DNA of 43,889 nt from contig DYNY01000009.1 in the NCBI GenBank assembly GCA_020720815.1, forward strand, positions 1 through 43,889, in the 5' to 3' direction. The DNA comes from Candidatus Elulimicrobium sp. (GTDB taxonomy: Bacteria; Patescibacteriota; Minisyncoccia; Phycocordibacterales; UBA918). The notes beneath the pieces were generated by a model that worked only from the letters and a program-made list of their open reading frames with translations, was not told the DNA's origin and searched no databases. Shown here in pieces: positions 23,923-43,889 of the stretch. Each line of letters opens with the position of its first letter. Position 1 is the first letter of the stretch. The translations under genes were made by a program, and so were the position numbers.

Positions 23923-23940
23923 GTTAAGTCCCGTCCTCTG

Positions 23941-24014
23941 TCCGCGCTCTAGGATTCGAACCTAGGACCCTCCGAGTATCAGTCGAATGCTCTAGCCAAC
24001 TGAGCTAAGCGCGG
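23941..24014 (-). tRNA. tRNA-Ile(GAU)
   Basis: CCGCGCT TA GCTCAGTTGGCTAGAGC A TTCGA CTGATAC TCGGA GGGTC CTAGG TTCGAAT CCTAG AGCGCGG A; anticodon GAT; no encoded CCA. Confidence 0.95.
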
Positions 24015-24161: not shown

Positions 24162-24461
24162 CTACTTCTGACTGCTCTGTCGCTGTAGATCGATCAGGGT
24201 CGTCCCGGGTTCTACCGGAACAGACTCCATCGTCAGACCTTGAAACTTATCCTCAGTGCAAGCGTAGTAACGTCCATCAAGCTCGATGGCCACGCATTGA
24301 CCAGCGATGTGGTCCCGATACTCGACTGGAGGATCACTATCGAGTAGTACGCGAACCAACAAGGCAAGCACCGCCATGAACATTGCCACCTTGAGTAGGT
24401 TACCTAGCCTGGTCGGCCGTTTCAGGCCAACCAGATCACTGTAAATTCCGGGACGCGCCAT
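24162..24461 (-). CDS. GC-rich cassette protein, single TM segment, unknown function
   Basis: Start MARPGIYSDLVG with AAGGAG SD 6 nt upstream; TM AMFMAVLALLVRVLL. Confidence 0.75.
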   Translation of the reverse strand: MARPGIYSDLVGLKRPTRLGNLLKVAMFMAVLALLVRVLLDSDPPVEYRDHIAGQCVAIELDGRYYACTEDKFQGLTMESVPVEPGTTLIDLQRQSSQK

Positions 24462-25128: not shown

Positions 25129-25137
25129 AAAAAGACA

Positions 25138-25181
25138 AACAATAAGCCTTCATTAGTATACACGAATGAAGGCTTATTGTT
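25138..25181. terminator. Hairpin ACAATAAGCCTTCATT...AATGAAGGCTTATTGT
   Basis: 16-bp arms, downstream of the minus-strand 16S. Confidence 0.75.
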
Positions 25182-25384
25182 ATCTTGCAACATCTATCAG
25201 CGACAAATTAGGAGATAGTTTTCACTCTCTTTTGTCTTATCCTTTGGACTTGGTCTTTCCCAAGAGTCTAATACCATTTCAGAGAACTGAGTATTATGTC
25301 TCGTTATATGCTCAATTGAGGCATATAACATCGACCAATTAGCCGTGTTTATATAAGTTACCCTATATAACCGACGTGTCCAAT

Positions 25385-26840
25385 TGGAATTAATCCACGA
25401 CCAGCTTCCGCTAGCCGTGCCTTGTTACGACTTAGTCCTTGTTATCGAATTTACCGTAGGTCGCCACAAGGACGAACTTCGGGCACTTCCGACTCCCCTG
25501 ACTTGACGGGCGGTGAGTACAAGGCTCGGGAACGTATTCACCGTGACGTGCTGATTCACGATTACTAGCGATTCCAGCTTCATGTGGGCGAGTTGCAGCC
25601 CACAATCCGGACTGAGGATAGTTTTATTAGGATTTGCTCCACCTTGCGGTATTGCGTCCCGTTGTGCTACCCATTGTATCACGAGTGCAGCCCAAGGCAT
25701 CAAGGGACATGCTGACCTGGCGTCATCCTCACCTTCCTCTCCCGTGAGGGAGCAGTCTCGCCTGACACTTATAACAGGCAACGAGGGTTGCGTTCGTTTC
25801 CCCACTTAAGGGAACAGCTCAAGCCACGAACTGACGACGGCCATGCATCACCTGCCATACACCCTCGAAGGCTTCTCTGGTTTCCCAGAGCGTGCAGTAT
25901 GGTTTCTAGCCTTGGTAAGGTTTTTCGCTTATCGACGAATTAAGCCACATGATCCACTGCTTGTGCGAGCCCCCGTCTATTCCTTTGAGTTTTAATCTTG
26001 CGATCGTACTACCCAGGCGGTCTGTTTAACGCGTTAGCTTCGCCACAGAGAGGGTCGATACTCCCTATAGCCAACAGACAGCGTTTAGGGCGTGGACTAC
26101 GCGGGTATCTAATCCGCTTCGCTACCCACGCTTTCGTGCCTCAGCGTCAATAAAGTCCCAGCAAGCTGCCTTCGCATTTGGTATTCCCCACGATATCAAC
26201 GGATTTCACCCCTACACCGTGAGTTCTGCTTGCCTCTGACTCATTCTAGTTATACCGTTTCAAATGCGATTCTGGGGTTGAGCCCCAGGATTTAACACCT
26301 GACTAATATAACCGCCTACGCACCCTTTACGCCCAGTAAATCCGGATAATGCTTGGGGCCTCTGTATTACCGCTCCTGCTGGCACAGAGTTAGGAGCCCC
26401 TTATTCATGAGGTAACGTCAAAAATTCCTCCCTCATAAAAGGTGTTTACGTCCCTAAGGACTTCATCCACCACGCGGCGTCGCTCCGTCAGGCTTTCGCC
26501 CATTGCGGAAGATTCTCGACTGCAGCCTCCCGTAGGAGTATGGACCGTGTCGCAGTTCCATCGGTGGGGGTCAGGCTCTCACCTCCCCTAGCCGTCGTAG
26601 CCTTGGTAAGCCGTTACCTTACCAACAAGCTGATAGCCCGCAGGCCGTTCCTAAAGCGATAAATCTTTACCCCGAAGGGACCATCAAGTATTATTCCGAC
26701 TTTCGCCGGGTTATGCCTGACTTTAGGGTACGTACCTACGTGTTCCTACCTCGTCTGCCATGAATATAAATTCATTCGACTTGCATGCCTCATCCACGCC
26801 GCCAGCATTCATCCTGAGCTAGGATCAAACTCTAATTTAA
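25385..26840 (-). rRNA. rrs: 16S ribosomal RNA (stand-alone)
   Basis: Reverse strand has AGAGTTTGATCCTAGCTCAG, ACTCCTACGGGAGGC, GTGCCAGCAGGAGCGGTAA and GTCGTAACAAGG plus the h45 GGAA loop. Ends approximate. Confidence 0.97.
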
Positions 26841-27878: not shown

Positions 27879-29183
27879 CTAAGCAGCCACCTTTAGGGTG
27901 GTTAGCTGTCGGTCGAAGGCACACCGATTGGCAGCCCCAAAAACCAACAGTTCTACTCCGTTATAACGCTTGCTGGCCTTGGTCTTCTGGAGCCTGACCT
28001 CGTCCTTCGGGTCATGCCCAGGCACACCAGTGACATAGACATACCCCAAACGGGCATGCTCGACCAAAATGGACACTTTGCCGACACCTTCGACCTGCAA
28101 GACAAAGGTCTGCGGTTCTTCCTTATCGCTCAGTCCAAGCGCCCGGCACAACATACCGAACCTGTCCGGAAACTGCACCTGCCGGCGAGTCGAGCTCGCC
28201 TTGTTCAAATCAACTTCGTCCTGTATGTTTTGTACCTGCTCGTCGAGCTCTTTGAACTCGTCCTTGACCATTCTGGTCTGTCGGCGGTTCTTGACGAGCT
28301 CGACGTAAGCCCAGAAGACCAACAAGGCAATGATGCCGATTGCACCAACAACATACAACAAATACTTCTCCACGGTGCTGACGCGACCGTCGACGGCCTT
28401 GGCTTTGGCTTCGAATGTACCCGCCGCCTTGATAGCAACAGTAGCCCGGTTCATGGCCGGTTCGGCCGCTTTGGTGGCGGCTATGCCAGCAGCGATGATC
28501 GTGGCATCAATCTGCTCGGCGACGCTCTTTTTGAGGGCGTCGCGGGCAGTGTTCTGCGCAACGATTTGCACTTTGAGGGCAGTCATCGCCTCGGCCGTCG
28601 GCGCCTTCTCCAATGCATCACGCAGGCTCGCGATCTCGGTTTCCTTGGCCGAGAGTTGTTGGCGAACCGAAATGATGGCTTGCGCATTCTCCGCCGCCTT
28701 CATTTCAAGCGCAGCTTGCGCCTTGGCAAAGGTGGCTTCGAGCGCCACGAGCTGCTCGGGTGTCACAGCCGCAACGTATGTCACAGCTGTGACGGGTGTC
28801 GCGACCGGTGTGGCGAAGGGGAAGAAGATCCCTTTGCCTTGCCCTTGCGCTTGGAGTTCGGCACCGGTCATGGTGTCGCTCCAGCCGTTGCGGGCCTTGA
28901 GCGCCGTGAAGCGCTCGGGTTTGTTGGCGCAGGCCGCCTGCCAAGCCGAAGCCTGGTTTTGGCAAACCCACACCAACACGGCGGCGGTGTAGATGGTGTC
29001 GGTCTCAGGGTCATACCCCTTGACGTCGCCCATCTCCACCTTCGCCAAATTCGTGAGGAACTGTTGCCAGTTACCAGACTTGGTCGACTCGATGAGGATG
29101 CGCTCCTCGGGGGCGTTGGCGAAGGCCTGTCCAACCCAAAGGAAGGACAGGACGGTCGCCAGGACGATTTGGACAAACTTCAT
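27879..29183 (-). CDS. GC-rich secreted/membrane protein with coiled-coil and TM; unknown function
   Basis: Signal peptide MKFVQIVLATVLSFLWVGQAFA; coiled-coil; TM YLLYVVGAIGIIALLVFWAYVELV; SD AAGGAG 6 nt upstream of ATG. Confidence 0.8.
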   Translation of the reverse strand: MKFVQIVLATVLSFLWVGQAFANAPEERILIESTKSGNWQQFLTNLAKVEMGDVKGYDPETDTIYTAAVLVWVCQNQASAWQAACANKPERFTALKARNGWSDTMTGAELQAQGQGKGIFFPFATPVATPVTAVTYVAAVTPEQLVALEATFAKAQAALEMKAAENAQAIISVRQQLSAKETEIASLRDALEKAPTAEAMTALKVQIVAQNTARDALKKSVAEQIDATIIAAGIAATKAAEPAMNRATVAIKAAGTFEAKAKAVDGRVSTVEKYLLYVVGAIGIIALLVFWAYVELVKNRRQTRMVKDEFKELDEQVQNIQDEVDLNKASSTRRQVQFPDRFGMLCRALGLSDKEEPQTFVLQVEGVGKVSILVEHARLGYVYVTGVPGHDPKDEVRLQKTKASKRYNGVELLVFGAANRCAFDRQLTTLKVAA

Positions 29184-29259
29184 GACTCACTCCTTAGATG
29201 AATGCCGATTGGGTCGCCCCAACTAGCACTTAGTTTCCGGGCGACCGGGATTCCCGCAG

Positions 29260-29742
29260 CTAGTGGCCGCAGGTGTTGGTGTTCGCGCAGGGCGATTCCA
29301 TCTTCAACGTCGCCATGTTGATGGCTTTTGCCACAGACTCGGCCTTGACTTGGTTATTGATTACCGTGCCATTGCACACACTGCCAGCCGGGCACTTACC
29401 CTTCTCGGCGACGGCGCGTGCCGTGTTGCCGTTGACGATGGCTGCACCGGTACCGCCCATGGCACCGACCGCCACTTGACCAGCGACGGTTTGGCCATGG
29501 ACTCGGTCCGGCGGAGCGGCGTTCTCTGCCAACTTGCACTTGCCGATGATGGGCTGACTGGTCTCCTTGTCGACCGGGCATTGGTATTCACCAACGCTCG
29601 TCGACGAACGATCCCAGCTATCCCCCACCGTTGTGGCGACGAAGTAGTTGCCGTTCGGCAACAACTTGGCCGAACTGGCGCAAGCGCCGAGCAGGACAGT
29701 GACGCACACGTGCACGAGGCTCAAGAAAAAGCGATTCTTCAT
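29260..29742 (-). CDS. GC-rich predicted lipoprotein, unknown function
   Basis: Lipobox VTVLLGAC; SD AAGGAG 6 nt upstream of ATG. Confidence 0.8.
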   Translation of the reverse strand: MKNRFFLSLVHVCVTVLLGACASSAKLLPNGNYFVATTVGDSWDRSSTSVGEYQCPVDKETSQPIIGKCKLAENAAPPDRVHGQTVAGQVAVGAMGGTGAAIVNGNTARAVAEKGKCPAGSVCNGTVINNQVKAESVAKAINMATLKMESPCANTNTCGH

Positions 29743-29775
29743 AACGATCTCCTTGATTCAGTTGGGTTGGGTTGT

Positions 29776-30504
29776 TTACCGGCAGACGCGCACTTGACGA
29801 ATTACCGTCATGACGTCGCCGGGGATATTGACGAAAGTGTCGGGTATCGCGACCTGACCGCGACAAACCAGGACCGAGAGTCCTGGCACATACACGAACT
29901 GGCCTGGCGACGGCACAATGTACCGTTGCGAGACCCAGCCACATTTCGGCACCGGGGCCTCGGCCTTGGGAGCCGGAGACGGAGGCGGAGACGGTGTTGC
30001 AGAGGGAGTCAGCGGCGGAGGGGGAGAAGGCGGGGGTACCGCCTCGAAGACCACGCCAACGTTGTTGCACGAACGACCCTTGTCGCCCATGAACCAGTAC
30101 GCAAAGACCCGGTCGCCGAGGTCGCACAGCAGTGCGACCTCGGGACGACCAATCGCCTTTTCCACATGGCGCGTGACCCGTGAACGTCCGCTCTCGCGAC
30201 CGTTCATATAGTCGAAAATTACCCCGTCGCGGACAAGCACCTTGCGGCACTCGCTCCCGCGGAGCTTCTCTTCTAGCGTCACACACATCTGCGGCGTGAG
30301 CCGGTCCTGCGGATCGACGGCGGCCGTGCGGTTGCATTGCTCAATCGCCGAACGCAGGGTCGGAGAGAAAGACGATGGCCGCATGCGCGTCCATTTCCCG
30401 AGCGCCGGATTCTCCGACGTCGGGTAGTCACTTGCCCAGCTGGGCACAGCAACCATGAGCAGCGCCGTGAGCGCCGCTCGCAAAGACATCCTGAGGATGC
30501 TCAT
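29776..30504 (-). CDS. GC-rich secreted protein with Pro/Ser/Thr-rich linker, unknown function
   Basis: Signal peptide ALTALLMVAVPSWA; PPPSPPPPLTPSATPSPPPSPAP linker; AAAGGAAG upstream of ATG. Confidence 0.78.
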   Translation of the reverse strand: MSILRMSLRAALTALLMVAVPSWASDYPTSENPALGKWTRMRPSSFSPTLRSAIEQCNRTAAVDPQDRLTPQMCVTLEEKLRGSECRKVLVRDGVIFDYMNGRESGRSRVTRHVEKAIGRPEVALLCDLGDRVFAYWFMGDKGRSCNNVGVVFEAVPPPSPPPPLTPSATPSPPPSPAPKAEAPVPKCGWVSQRYIVPSPGQFVYVPGLSVLVCRGQVAIPDTFVNIPGDVMTVIRQVRVCR

Positions 30505-30799
30505 GGCGTTTTTCTTCCTTTGGTTGTGTCACCGACTCTTGAGTTGAGCTGATGACGGTTTGAAATTTGATTCTATATTATTCTAAGTTGTCAAAGGACA
30601 AAGACGAGAGCTTTTGACCCTTATCCCCCTTTGTGAGTTTTACCCCACTTCATTAATTATGATAGCACACTTTATATAAAAAATCAAGTCTTGACGCCCA
30701 TTCTCTTTCAGGCCTTCTTTTGGCTTTTTTTTGCCATTAAAATAATATCGAGTGAGGCTTATACTCACTCGATAAACTGTTTTTAAATTAAAAAAGTCC

Positions 30800-30837
30800 C
30801 CGCTTGACCGTGAGGTATAGGCGGGGACTTTGGGTTG
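30800..30837. terminator. Hairpin AAAGTCCCCGC...GCGGGGACTTT
   Basis: 11-bp arms, immediately 3' of the minus-strand 30873 gene. Confidence 0.8.
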
Positions 30838-30872
30838 GTGGCAAAGTTAGACTCTGCCACGGGTTGCCGTGC

Positions 30873-31400
30873 TTACGGCGTGGCGGGGGTGGTCGTCGGT
30901 GCCGGCAGGTACTTCCACTGCGTCTGCAAGGACGCCGTGAACATGCTGTTGGTACCAGCGATGCTGGACACCGGGGCGGCTTGCGTGCCGATGCCCTGGT
31001 TGGTGGCCCGGGCGCCGGTCATCTGCTCTCCGATGATGTAGAGCTTGGCTTGGGTCGAAGAGCAGTCGACAGTGCAGTTCGGGTTGGAATTCCCGGTCAA
31101 GTACGTGTCCGCACCAAGCCGGAAAAACCCGTCGGCCAAGGTCGTGACGGTACCCTTGCCGTCGCCACCGACGTTGTAGCCCTGTCCGATGCTGGAACTG
31201 ATGTTCCAACCATTGACCGTGAGGCCAATGGGGGCCGGGGCCGGTGCGATGGTGCTGGTGCTGACCGTGACACCCGGAAGGGCTGTCGAGGTCTGGCCAT
31301 GGGCCATTGTGAGCAACCCCAAGGTGCCGAAGGTGGCCATGAGCAGCAGAGCTGCCAAACCAACGATGCCCTTACGGGCGTTGAAGAACAAGTTGCACAT
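30873..31400 (-). CDS. GC-rich secreted protein, unknown function
   Basis: MCNLFFNARKGIVGLAALLLMATFGTLGLLTMAHG signal; SD AAGGAG 9 nt upstream of ATG 31400. Confidence 0.75.
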   Translation of the reverse strand: MCNLFFNARKGIVGLAALLLMATFGTLGLLTMAHGQTSTALPGVTVSTSTIAPAPAPIGLTVNGWNISSSIGQGYNVGGDGKGTVTTLADGFFRLGADTYLTGNSNPNCTVDCSSTQAKLYIIGEQMTGARATNQGIGTQAAPVSSIAGTNSMFTASLQTQWKYLPAPTTTPATP

Positions 31401-36177: not shown

Positions 36178-36984
36178 CTATTGACGACTTTGCAATTTGA
36201 GGAGATTGTTAAACAAAATTGCAATAGTTAAAGGGCCAATTCCACCTGGCACCGGCGTAAAAATTGAGGCTTTATTAGACACATCTTTATGGGCATCGCC
36301 AACTAGTACTCCGCCATCTTCTGATGCACCGGCATCAAAAACAACTACTCCTTCTTTTATCATTTCTGGTAAAAGAAGATTTTGCTGTCCTACGCCCAAG
36401 ACGATTATATCGGCTTCTTTAGTAGCTTTATAAATGTCATCTTTATTAGTTTTAGCCTCTACCACTAAAACCTTTGCCCCCTTACTTTGGGCATAGAACA
36501 AAACTGGCTTGCCCACTAATCGACCAGCCCCAAATATCACCACCTGTTTATCTTTCCAATCAAGTTTATATCGCTTTGAAATATAATCAATCGCTCCGAC
36601 GACCGGCGGTAGGATTGTGGCTTCTTCACCCTGGTAGGAAAAAGCATCGACGTCTGAATCCTTTGGTATAGCTAAGAGCACTTCTGCCGTATCAATATGA
36701 TGAGGTAGTGGTAACTGTACAATCACTCCAGAGCAGTCTGCAGCGGCTTTTAACACCGCTTCAATCACAGTCTCGGTTGTTGCTTCAGCTGACAATATAT
36801 TGGTTGTTATCTGAATCCCCAACGAACTGGCAATATTTTTTTTCAGCTCTAAATACTTTTGTGTTTCAAAATTTGGATTACAGGCAACGATAGCTAAACA
36901 AAGTGGCTCATGAAGTCCTGCCACTTGATTGGCTATCTCTGTCTTAATCTCTGTCGCCAGAGTTCGTCCGTCTACTATATTCAT
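36178..36984 (-). CDS. folD: Methylenetetrahydrofolate dehydrogenase/cyclohydrolase (FolD), somewhat divergent
   Basis: GVIVQLPLPHHID; FGAGRLVGKPV; TPVPGGIGPLTIAILFNN. Confidence 0.88.
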   Translation of the reverse strand: MNIVDGRTLATEIKTEIANQVAGLHEPLCLAIVACNPNFETQKYLELKKNIASSLGIQITTNILSAEATTETVIEAVLKAAADCSGVIVQLPLPHHIDTAEVLLAIPKDSDVDAFSYQGEEATILPPVVGAIDYISKRYKLDWKDKQVVIFGAGRLVGKPVLFYAQSKGAKVLVVEAKTNKDDIYKATKEADIIVLGVGQQNLLLPEMIKEGVVVFDAGASEDGGVLVGDAHKDVSNKASIFTPVPGGIGPLTIAILFNNLLKLQSRQ

Positions 36985-42389: not shown

Positions 42390-42626
42390 TCACTTGGCTA
42401 GGTTAGCTTGTGTGCGCAACGCCTCGAGGGCACGCGCGTTCAGCAAATTGCTCTCGGCCTTCTCCACTGGTGAAGGTATGTACCTGTGGCACTCCTTACC
42501 GGTTGGAGGCTTGGCGACCGAACCAGTTACCAAGCGCAAGTGAACTTTTTTCTCGCTTTCGTCAGCCTTGGGGCGGTGTGCAGATTCTACCCGCCCGCAT
42601 TTTGTGCAAGAATATCCAAGTCCCAT
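42390..42626 (-). CDS. Small Cys-containing (CxxC) protein, GC-rich cassette
   Basis: MGLGYSCTKCGRVESAH; strong SD AAAGGAGG upstream of ATG. Confidence 0.7.
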   Translation of the reverse strand: MGLGYSCTKCGRVESAHRPKADESEKKVHLRLVTGSVAKPPTGKECHRYIPSPVEKAESNLLNARALEALRTQANLAK

Positions 42627-42985: not shown

Positions 42986-43103
42986 TAATGTTGGCGCCTA
43001 CCTACTCTGCCCCATAAATGGAGTACCATCGGCGATGGAGAGCTTAACTTCCGAGTTCGGAATGAGATCGGGTGGACCCTCTCCGCTAAAGCACCAACAT
43101 TAA
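42986..43103 (-). rRNA. rrf: 5S ribosomal RNA
   Basis: Reverse strand TAATGTTGGTGCTTTAGCGGAGAGGGTCCACCCGATCTCATTCCGAACTCGGAAGTTAAG...CGCCAACATTA. Confidence 0.95.
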
Positions 43104-43519
43104 ATTTTCAATAAACGTCATCCGCTTACAAACTGCGTAAAGAACGCGAGAGGTGGAGGAGACCAACAGACAGGTGGCGAACTTTACGGCTTACGATCCT
43201 GAATGTCTTTCGACTTCAATTCACGCGAGCTATTGTTCCCTATTTGTTGACACATCCCCTCCACTTTTTATCTCTCACGCGAGTCCATGTCACATACATG
43301 ACAGAATCCTCTACGCAATTTGTAATAATTACTATATTCAATATTAGTTTAGTGTTTGCACACTAAATCGCATATTCTAGTTTTCTGGCGGTGAATTTCG
43401 AATAAATTCACCGCTGACTTTTTGTATTTAACACAACTTAAACATTCAATCCATTGTTCAGCTTCTTTGTTACAGCATTTCTGTAGTTACGTACACGCTT
43501 TTACCGCATGCAACGTTCC

Positions 43520-43889
<370 letters not shown>

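Follow-up and report, generated by a model that had tools for sequence, protein, structure and literature searches.

The 16S rRNA gene in the window (the whole stretch of 43,889 nucleotides analysed here) was confirmed on re-reading of its sequence to lack the anti-Shine-Dalgarno (anti-SD) motif, and the gene sequences of relatives indicate that the loss is order-wide, with repeated further losses in the class. We consider it very probable that the ancestor of the order lost the anti-SD, and that core genes now start without rRNA-mRNA pairing, operon-first genes largely from leaderless mRNAs.

The full-length gene occupies 26840..25383 (minus strand; Rfam RF00177, model positions 1-1533, 1376.9 bits). 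An exact pattern match placed the intact 1492 region and helix 45 (GTCGTAACAAGG...GGAT) at 25393..25431 (minus), the 1492 region GTCGTAACAAGG itself occupying 25431-25420. Helix 45 reads CACGGCTAGC-GGAA-GCTGGTCGTG and is followed by GGATTAATTCC to position 25385; GGATTAATTCCAATTGG is found after the helix where GGATCACCTCCTT is expected, and the 3' tail at 25378..25396 (minus) is GGATTAATTCCAATTGGAC in place of GGATCACCTCCTTTCT. The initial annotation had thus given the sequence and coordinates of this 3' end correctly, and was right to call both the 1492 region and helix 45 intact. It had also described the trailer as free of CCTCC. The trailer (25130..25377, minus) contains hairpins, and CCTCC does not occur on the minus strand anywhere from 29981 to 24332, and hence neither in the tail nor in the kilobase of trailer; the nearest downstream copy lies more than 1 kb past the 16S gene.

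Several other features of this locus were seen. A GTCGAT element, located in the trailer at about 25325-25340 (minus), 50-80 nt after helix 45, is kept across the order between two variable hairpins. The 530 loop, near 26380 (minus), reads CAGCAGGAGCGG, and its 505-507/524-526 pseudoknot is UCC/GGA rather than GGC/GCC. Compensated variants (UGC/GCA, UCC/GGA and UAC/GUA) were found across the phylum, and the idea that the 530-loop change is a local oddity was rejected. The rRNA operon is split, with the end of the 23S gene (43518-43889) and the 5S gene (42989-43098) some 16 kb upstream of the 16S gene on the minus strand. A tRNA-Ile gene (23940-24014, minus) lies about 1.4 kb downstream of the 16S gene, and a gene for a T4SS pilin-like protein (PF18895; 24706-25068, plus strand) is found just downstream of it on the opposite strand.

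We read the tails of related 16S genes by a pattern search with a gap of 21-25 between conserved elements of the 3' end. All tails read from the same genus and family showed the same helix 45 followed by GGATTAATTCCAAT[TC]GG, without CCTCC; one compensated pair differs in the helix of L027. Searching the GTDB genomes for GGAAGCTGGTCGTGGATTAATTC returned 56 records, carrying the names Candidatus Kaiserbacteria, Nomurabacteria, Zambryskibacteria, Paceibacterota and Parcubacteria, with one labelled Gracilibacteria, and GGAUUAAUUCC is a tail stretch of the CCTCC-free 16S in the lineage of the window. A tail match was obtained in 221 of the 398 genomes of the order. Among the matches listed, CCTCC was present only on 16S copies with a foreign helix 45 (G120:C68, G456:C18, G135:C36, G255:C6 and G490:C30), and no native-type 16S with CCTCC was seen among them, be it in Kaiserbacteria, Nomurabacteria, Zambryskibacteria or others. 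Since the tails match within the genus and the family, and the native-type tails listed for the order likewise lack CCTCC, neither chance nor an isolated sequencing error accounts for them.

Elsewhere in the class the tails vary by family (GGATCACCTCCTTTCTA, GGATCATCTCCTTTCT, GGATCACTTCTTATCT, GGATCATTTCTTTTTT, GGATTATTTACTACC and others), with CCTCC intact in some families, eroded in others, and one base off in some tails. Among the matches listed for the remainder of the phylum, almost every tail is CACCTCC or TACCTCC and few are eroded, which indicates that the same search detects CCTCC where it is present. In a tree of 65 16S rows, from which helix 45 and the tail had been left out, the order and its nearest neighbours grouped as one clade of 32 rows, all of which had lost the motif (SH-aLRT 99). 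The tree implied about seven changes between lost and intact states within the class, a count that is approximate because some rows are partial or long-branched. The loss is no local oddity, being common to a whole order.

We then examined SD motifs, counting GGAGG or AGGAG at -20..-4 of mechanically called ORF starts in about 200 kb per main genome, and in 60-80 kb for three genomes with an intact anti-SD. The share of ORFs with a motif was 2.2% in the genome of the window, 0% in G001 of the same genus, 3.7% in G050 and 5.6% in G074, all under about 10%; in these four and in G382 the motifs were at or near background. Relatives with an intact anti-SD showed 7.5% (G249), 17% (G360) and 18% (G272) against a background of 0-8%, and enrichment was seen in three of four such relatives, G185 being without clear enrichment. 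Because the intact relatives also have little SD in core genes and some -10 signal, and G185 is not enriched, the link between anti-SD loss, SD motifs and -10 boxes is a trend and not a clean switch. A residual SD signal was seen in the 305 operon-first ORFs of the genomes that lack the anti-SD, with 19 hits in the bin -15..-11 and 0-6 in other bins; in this small set of genes the motifs are close to perfect and correctly spaced. SD-bearing genes in these genomes were found in 10 of 55 genes with a GC of at least 0.50 and in 11 of 670 with a GC below 0.46 (p 5e-7).

A different signal occupies the start region. The upstream base profile of the genomes without an anti-SD shows T at -12, A at -11 and T at -7, and the most enriched words (AATAA, TAAAT, ATAAT) are A/T-rich and resemble a promoter box. 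TANNNT peaks at -12 of operon-first genes, at 12% in the genome of the window, 15% in G001 and 21% in G050, against a background of 3%. When scanned with a fixed sigma70 -10 matrix, with the expectation taken from block shuffles, 63 of 305 operon-first genes had their best -10 box at -14..-10, compared to 32.5 +/- 5.3 in the shuffled sequences (z 5.7), while internal genes showed no significant excess at this position (z 1.5). The box is of the extended type (TGnTATAAT), about -12 from the ATG: T reaches 0.52 and G 0.44 in columns that lie before it and played no part in the selection. A -35 box preceding the -10 box is weak at most. The FolD-like gene (36178..36984, minus) provides an example of a leaderless-type start, in that TATACT is found a few bases before its ATG in all five genomes inspected, namely the window and four relatives. 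Clear boxes at -14..-10 are limited to about 29% of operon-first ORFs, and other modes of initiation must therefore serve the remainder.

A TANNNT element at about -12 from the start has been read as the mark of leaderless genes (Zheng et al. 2011, PMC3160421), and the leaderless -10 geometry has been tested in Deinococcus (PMC12340547). Given the same geometry here, leaderless initiation is the best-supported substitute, and would replace SD pairing. YchF, which is retained, promotes leaderless translation, and ribosome biogenesis factors are reduced in CPR (Amikura et al. 2025, PMC12641178); Shine-Dalgarno goes unmentioned in that paper.

Analysis of the translation machinery found IF3 in 16/16 genomes, and an S1-like protein in the same 16, in all cases below the rpsA cut-off. 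A bS21-like protein gave a weak match in the genome of the window and was matched in many others too, and the bS21-like genes readable in the inspected loci were without SD. Tracking of anti-SD status by the presence of bS21 was rejected, since weak or clear matches occur in both groups. Era was found above cut-off in none of 80 genomes. Era contacts GAUCA and CCUCC, and most CPR have lost it (review PMC10582724). Era is absent on both sides of the anti-SD divide, so that its loss alone was rejected as the cause; loss of Era is probably older than loss of the anti-SD, and not sufficient for it.

From these results we infer the following order of events. The 16S of the window would be that of a Kaiserbacteria-type Patescibacterium, in the order of which the anti-SD was lost in the common ancestor. 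Use of SD may already have been low across the class, and the class-wide absence of Era would have removed one factor binding to GAUCACCUCC, so that the tail could drift. Initiation at core genes would no longer proceed through rRNA-mRNA pairing. Operon-first genes would largely be transcribed from an extended -10 box, with the start point at or next to the ATG, yielding leaderless mRNAs, and internal genes may be reached by coupling or through A/T-rich unstructured starts.

The initial annotation had concluded that the ribosome probably cannot perform canonical SD pairing. This agrees with a sole native 16S without the anti-SD and with core genes without SD motifs, but SD motifs persist in a small accessory set that includes an operon beside the 16S gene. 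This four-gene operon (27879..31400, minus; GC 0.55-0.6) lies upstream of the 16S gene and encodes signal-peptide and lipoprotein ORFs at 30873-31400, 29776-30504, 29260-29742 and 27879-29183. Two orphan ORFs, both on the minus strand, also bear SD motifs: one with AAGGAG between the 16S and tRNA-Ile genes (24162..24461; no Pfam match), and one with AAAGGAGG right after the 5S gene (42390..42626). The SD-bearing genes of this contig are grouped around its rRNA loci. Homologous operons were found in G007, G012, G028 and G033, which together with the window make five syntenic Kaiserbacteria genomes, at the same locus beside genes for UMP kinase, CoaE, SecF, SecD and the FolD-like protein (neighbours were named from recognisable sequence, not by family search). 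Among the operon-bearing relatives the 16S tail could be read in G007, where it is GGATTAATTCC.

That the SD motifs of the operon are functionless relics, imported from SD-using bacteria, is a serious alternative but not, in our judgement, the probable one. SD-bearing genes in the genomes without an anti-SD are GC-rich and have no convincing Pfam or PHROG families, which favours this reading. However, the operon occupies the same locus in five genomes although its proteins are only 24-61% identical to those of the window and its GC ranges from 0.37 to 0.62, and its upstream bases have therefore had time to drift. The motif (AGGAG, GGAGG, GAGGA or AAGGA) is nevertheless kept in 13/16 operon ORFs as against 1/52 flanking ORFs (Fisher p 2e-10, indicative only because the motif set was picked after the operon had been seen). 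One window ORF in this count was taken from the opposite strand, which can only weaken the result. Vertical inheritance with a conserved SD argues against recent import, but the motifs may be relics that decay slowly, or the genes may have been exchanged repeatedly with donors that use SD. The queries tried gave no homologues in plasmids, phages or IMG/VR, and the proposal that these are phage or plasmid genes is unsupported. It is unlikely, on the other hand, that the motifs are functional and read by a GGA-binding protein, a separate CCUCC RNA or other ribosomes; if so, a small accessory gene set would have its own initiation route.

We also considered whether the anti-SD has been replaced by the UUCC/UUUCAA tail, which is prone to folding into a small hairpin, through pairing with a new motif in the mRNA. 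The tail is conserved, as GGATTAATTCCAATTGGA in the family and TTTCAA..TGAA elsewhere, and a stem of at least 4 is possible in 76% of distinct tails, compared to 40% in shuffles. The mini-hairpin is only suggestive, being above shuffles with few independent compensatory changes. Pairing of this kind appears quite improbable, since none of the k-mers that stand out upstream is complementary to the tail, the tail varies between families, and duplex energies with the SD operon starts are generally weaker than those with a canonical anti-SD.

Further rRNA pieces were found in the assembly, which totals 856 kb in 49 contigs (completeness 98): on C1 (1.9 kb), C11 (1.2 kb), C25 (3.8 kb) and C48 (1.9 kb), at loci L002, L003, L035 and L036. 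The 16S fragments on C1 and C11 share about 70% identity with the 16S of the window and differ from each other, and C25 is eukaryotic 18S-ITS-5.8S-28S rDNA. The search for a second 16S did find one with a CCTCC tail, on C48, but it was judged a contaminant because of its short contig, its different helix 45, its spacer with tRNA-Ile and tRNA-Ala, and the other foreign rRNA alongside; the four contigs are contaminants from different organisms. These properties of the extra 16S pieces make it extremely unlikely that the true 16S continues into an anti-SD or that the cell relies on another, intact 16S. So do the dozens of independent assemblies that share the tail, and G050, a genome of 981 kb from the order assembled as a single contig, with one 16S match and no CCTCC.

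Anti-SD loss is typically encountered in symbionts of insects, in some Flavobacteriia and in isolated unusual genomes. It has been documented in 128 organisms (Amin et al. 2018, PMC6107228) and in 266 organisms, including one Campbellbacteria and one Wolfebacteria genome (PMC10783764). The initial annotation had described it as known in a few reduced lineages, which holds for the kind of loss but is too narrow, as it also occurs outside reduced genomes, for example in Flavobacteriia (PMC10783764). The SD-scarce organisms of category iv in that survey, which include Campbellbacteria and Ca. Wolfebacteria, are alike in having no CCUCC after helix 45, few SD motifs and a variant common to close relatives, and two Parcubacteria genomes are already on the list. 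Here, in contrast, the loss spans a whole order with several separate losses besides, it is tied to -10 boxes placed at the start codon, and one operon still bears SD motifs. The portion of Amin et al. (2018, PMC6107228) used here applies the same criterion (helix 45, then a tail free of CCUCCU) and reports the same loss of SD; the groups it names are Bacteroidetes, Tenericutes, Proteobacteria and Firmicutes, and not Patescibacteria. In Flavobacterium johnsoniae, most genes similarly lack SD and a small set keeps it, but there CCUCC is present and sequestered by bS21, the gene for which has an SD (PMC10783764), whereas here CCUCC is absent and the inspected bS21-like genes are without SD.

Of these findings, the most surprising is the operon that retains SD motifs. 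Deinococcus-Thermus and Actinobacteria are not known to have lost the anti-SD, which is gone in the lineage of the window. Their leaderless genes likewise carry a TANNNT or -10 box some 12 bp before the start codon (PMC3160421, PMC12340547). A search of open-access journal papers on leaderless initiation and Patescibacteria or CPR returned nothing on a link to anti-SD loss. The kind of loss is already known from single Parcubacteria genomes; its order-wide extent, its repetition and its coupling to leaderless promoters provisionally appear new.

Anti-SD loss is thus fixed in a large uncultured order, and intact, one-base-off and eroded tails stand side by side in the class, so that the steps by which a core translation signal is lost can be read. 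Leaderless promoters are the likely substitute for the lost anti-SD, and gene callers that look for SD sites may place starts wrongly in this lineage. Whether SD motifs can work without an anti-SD can be tested directly on the operon that retains them.
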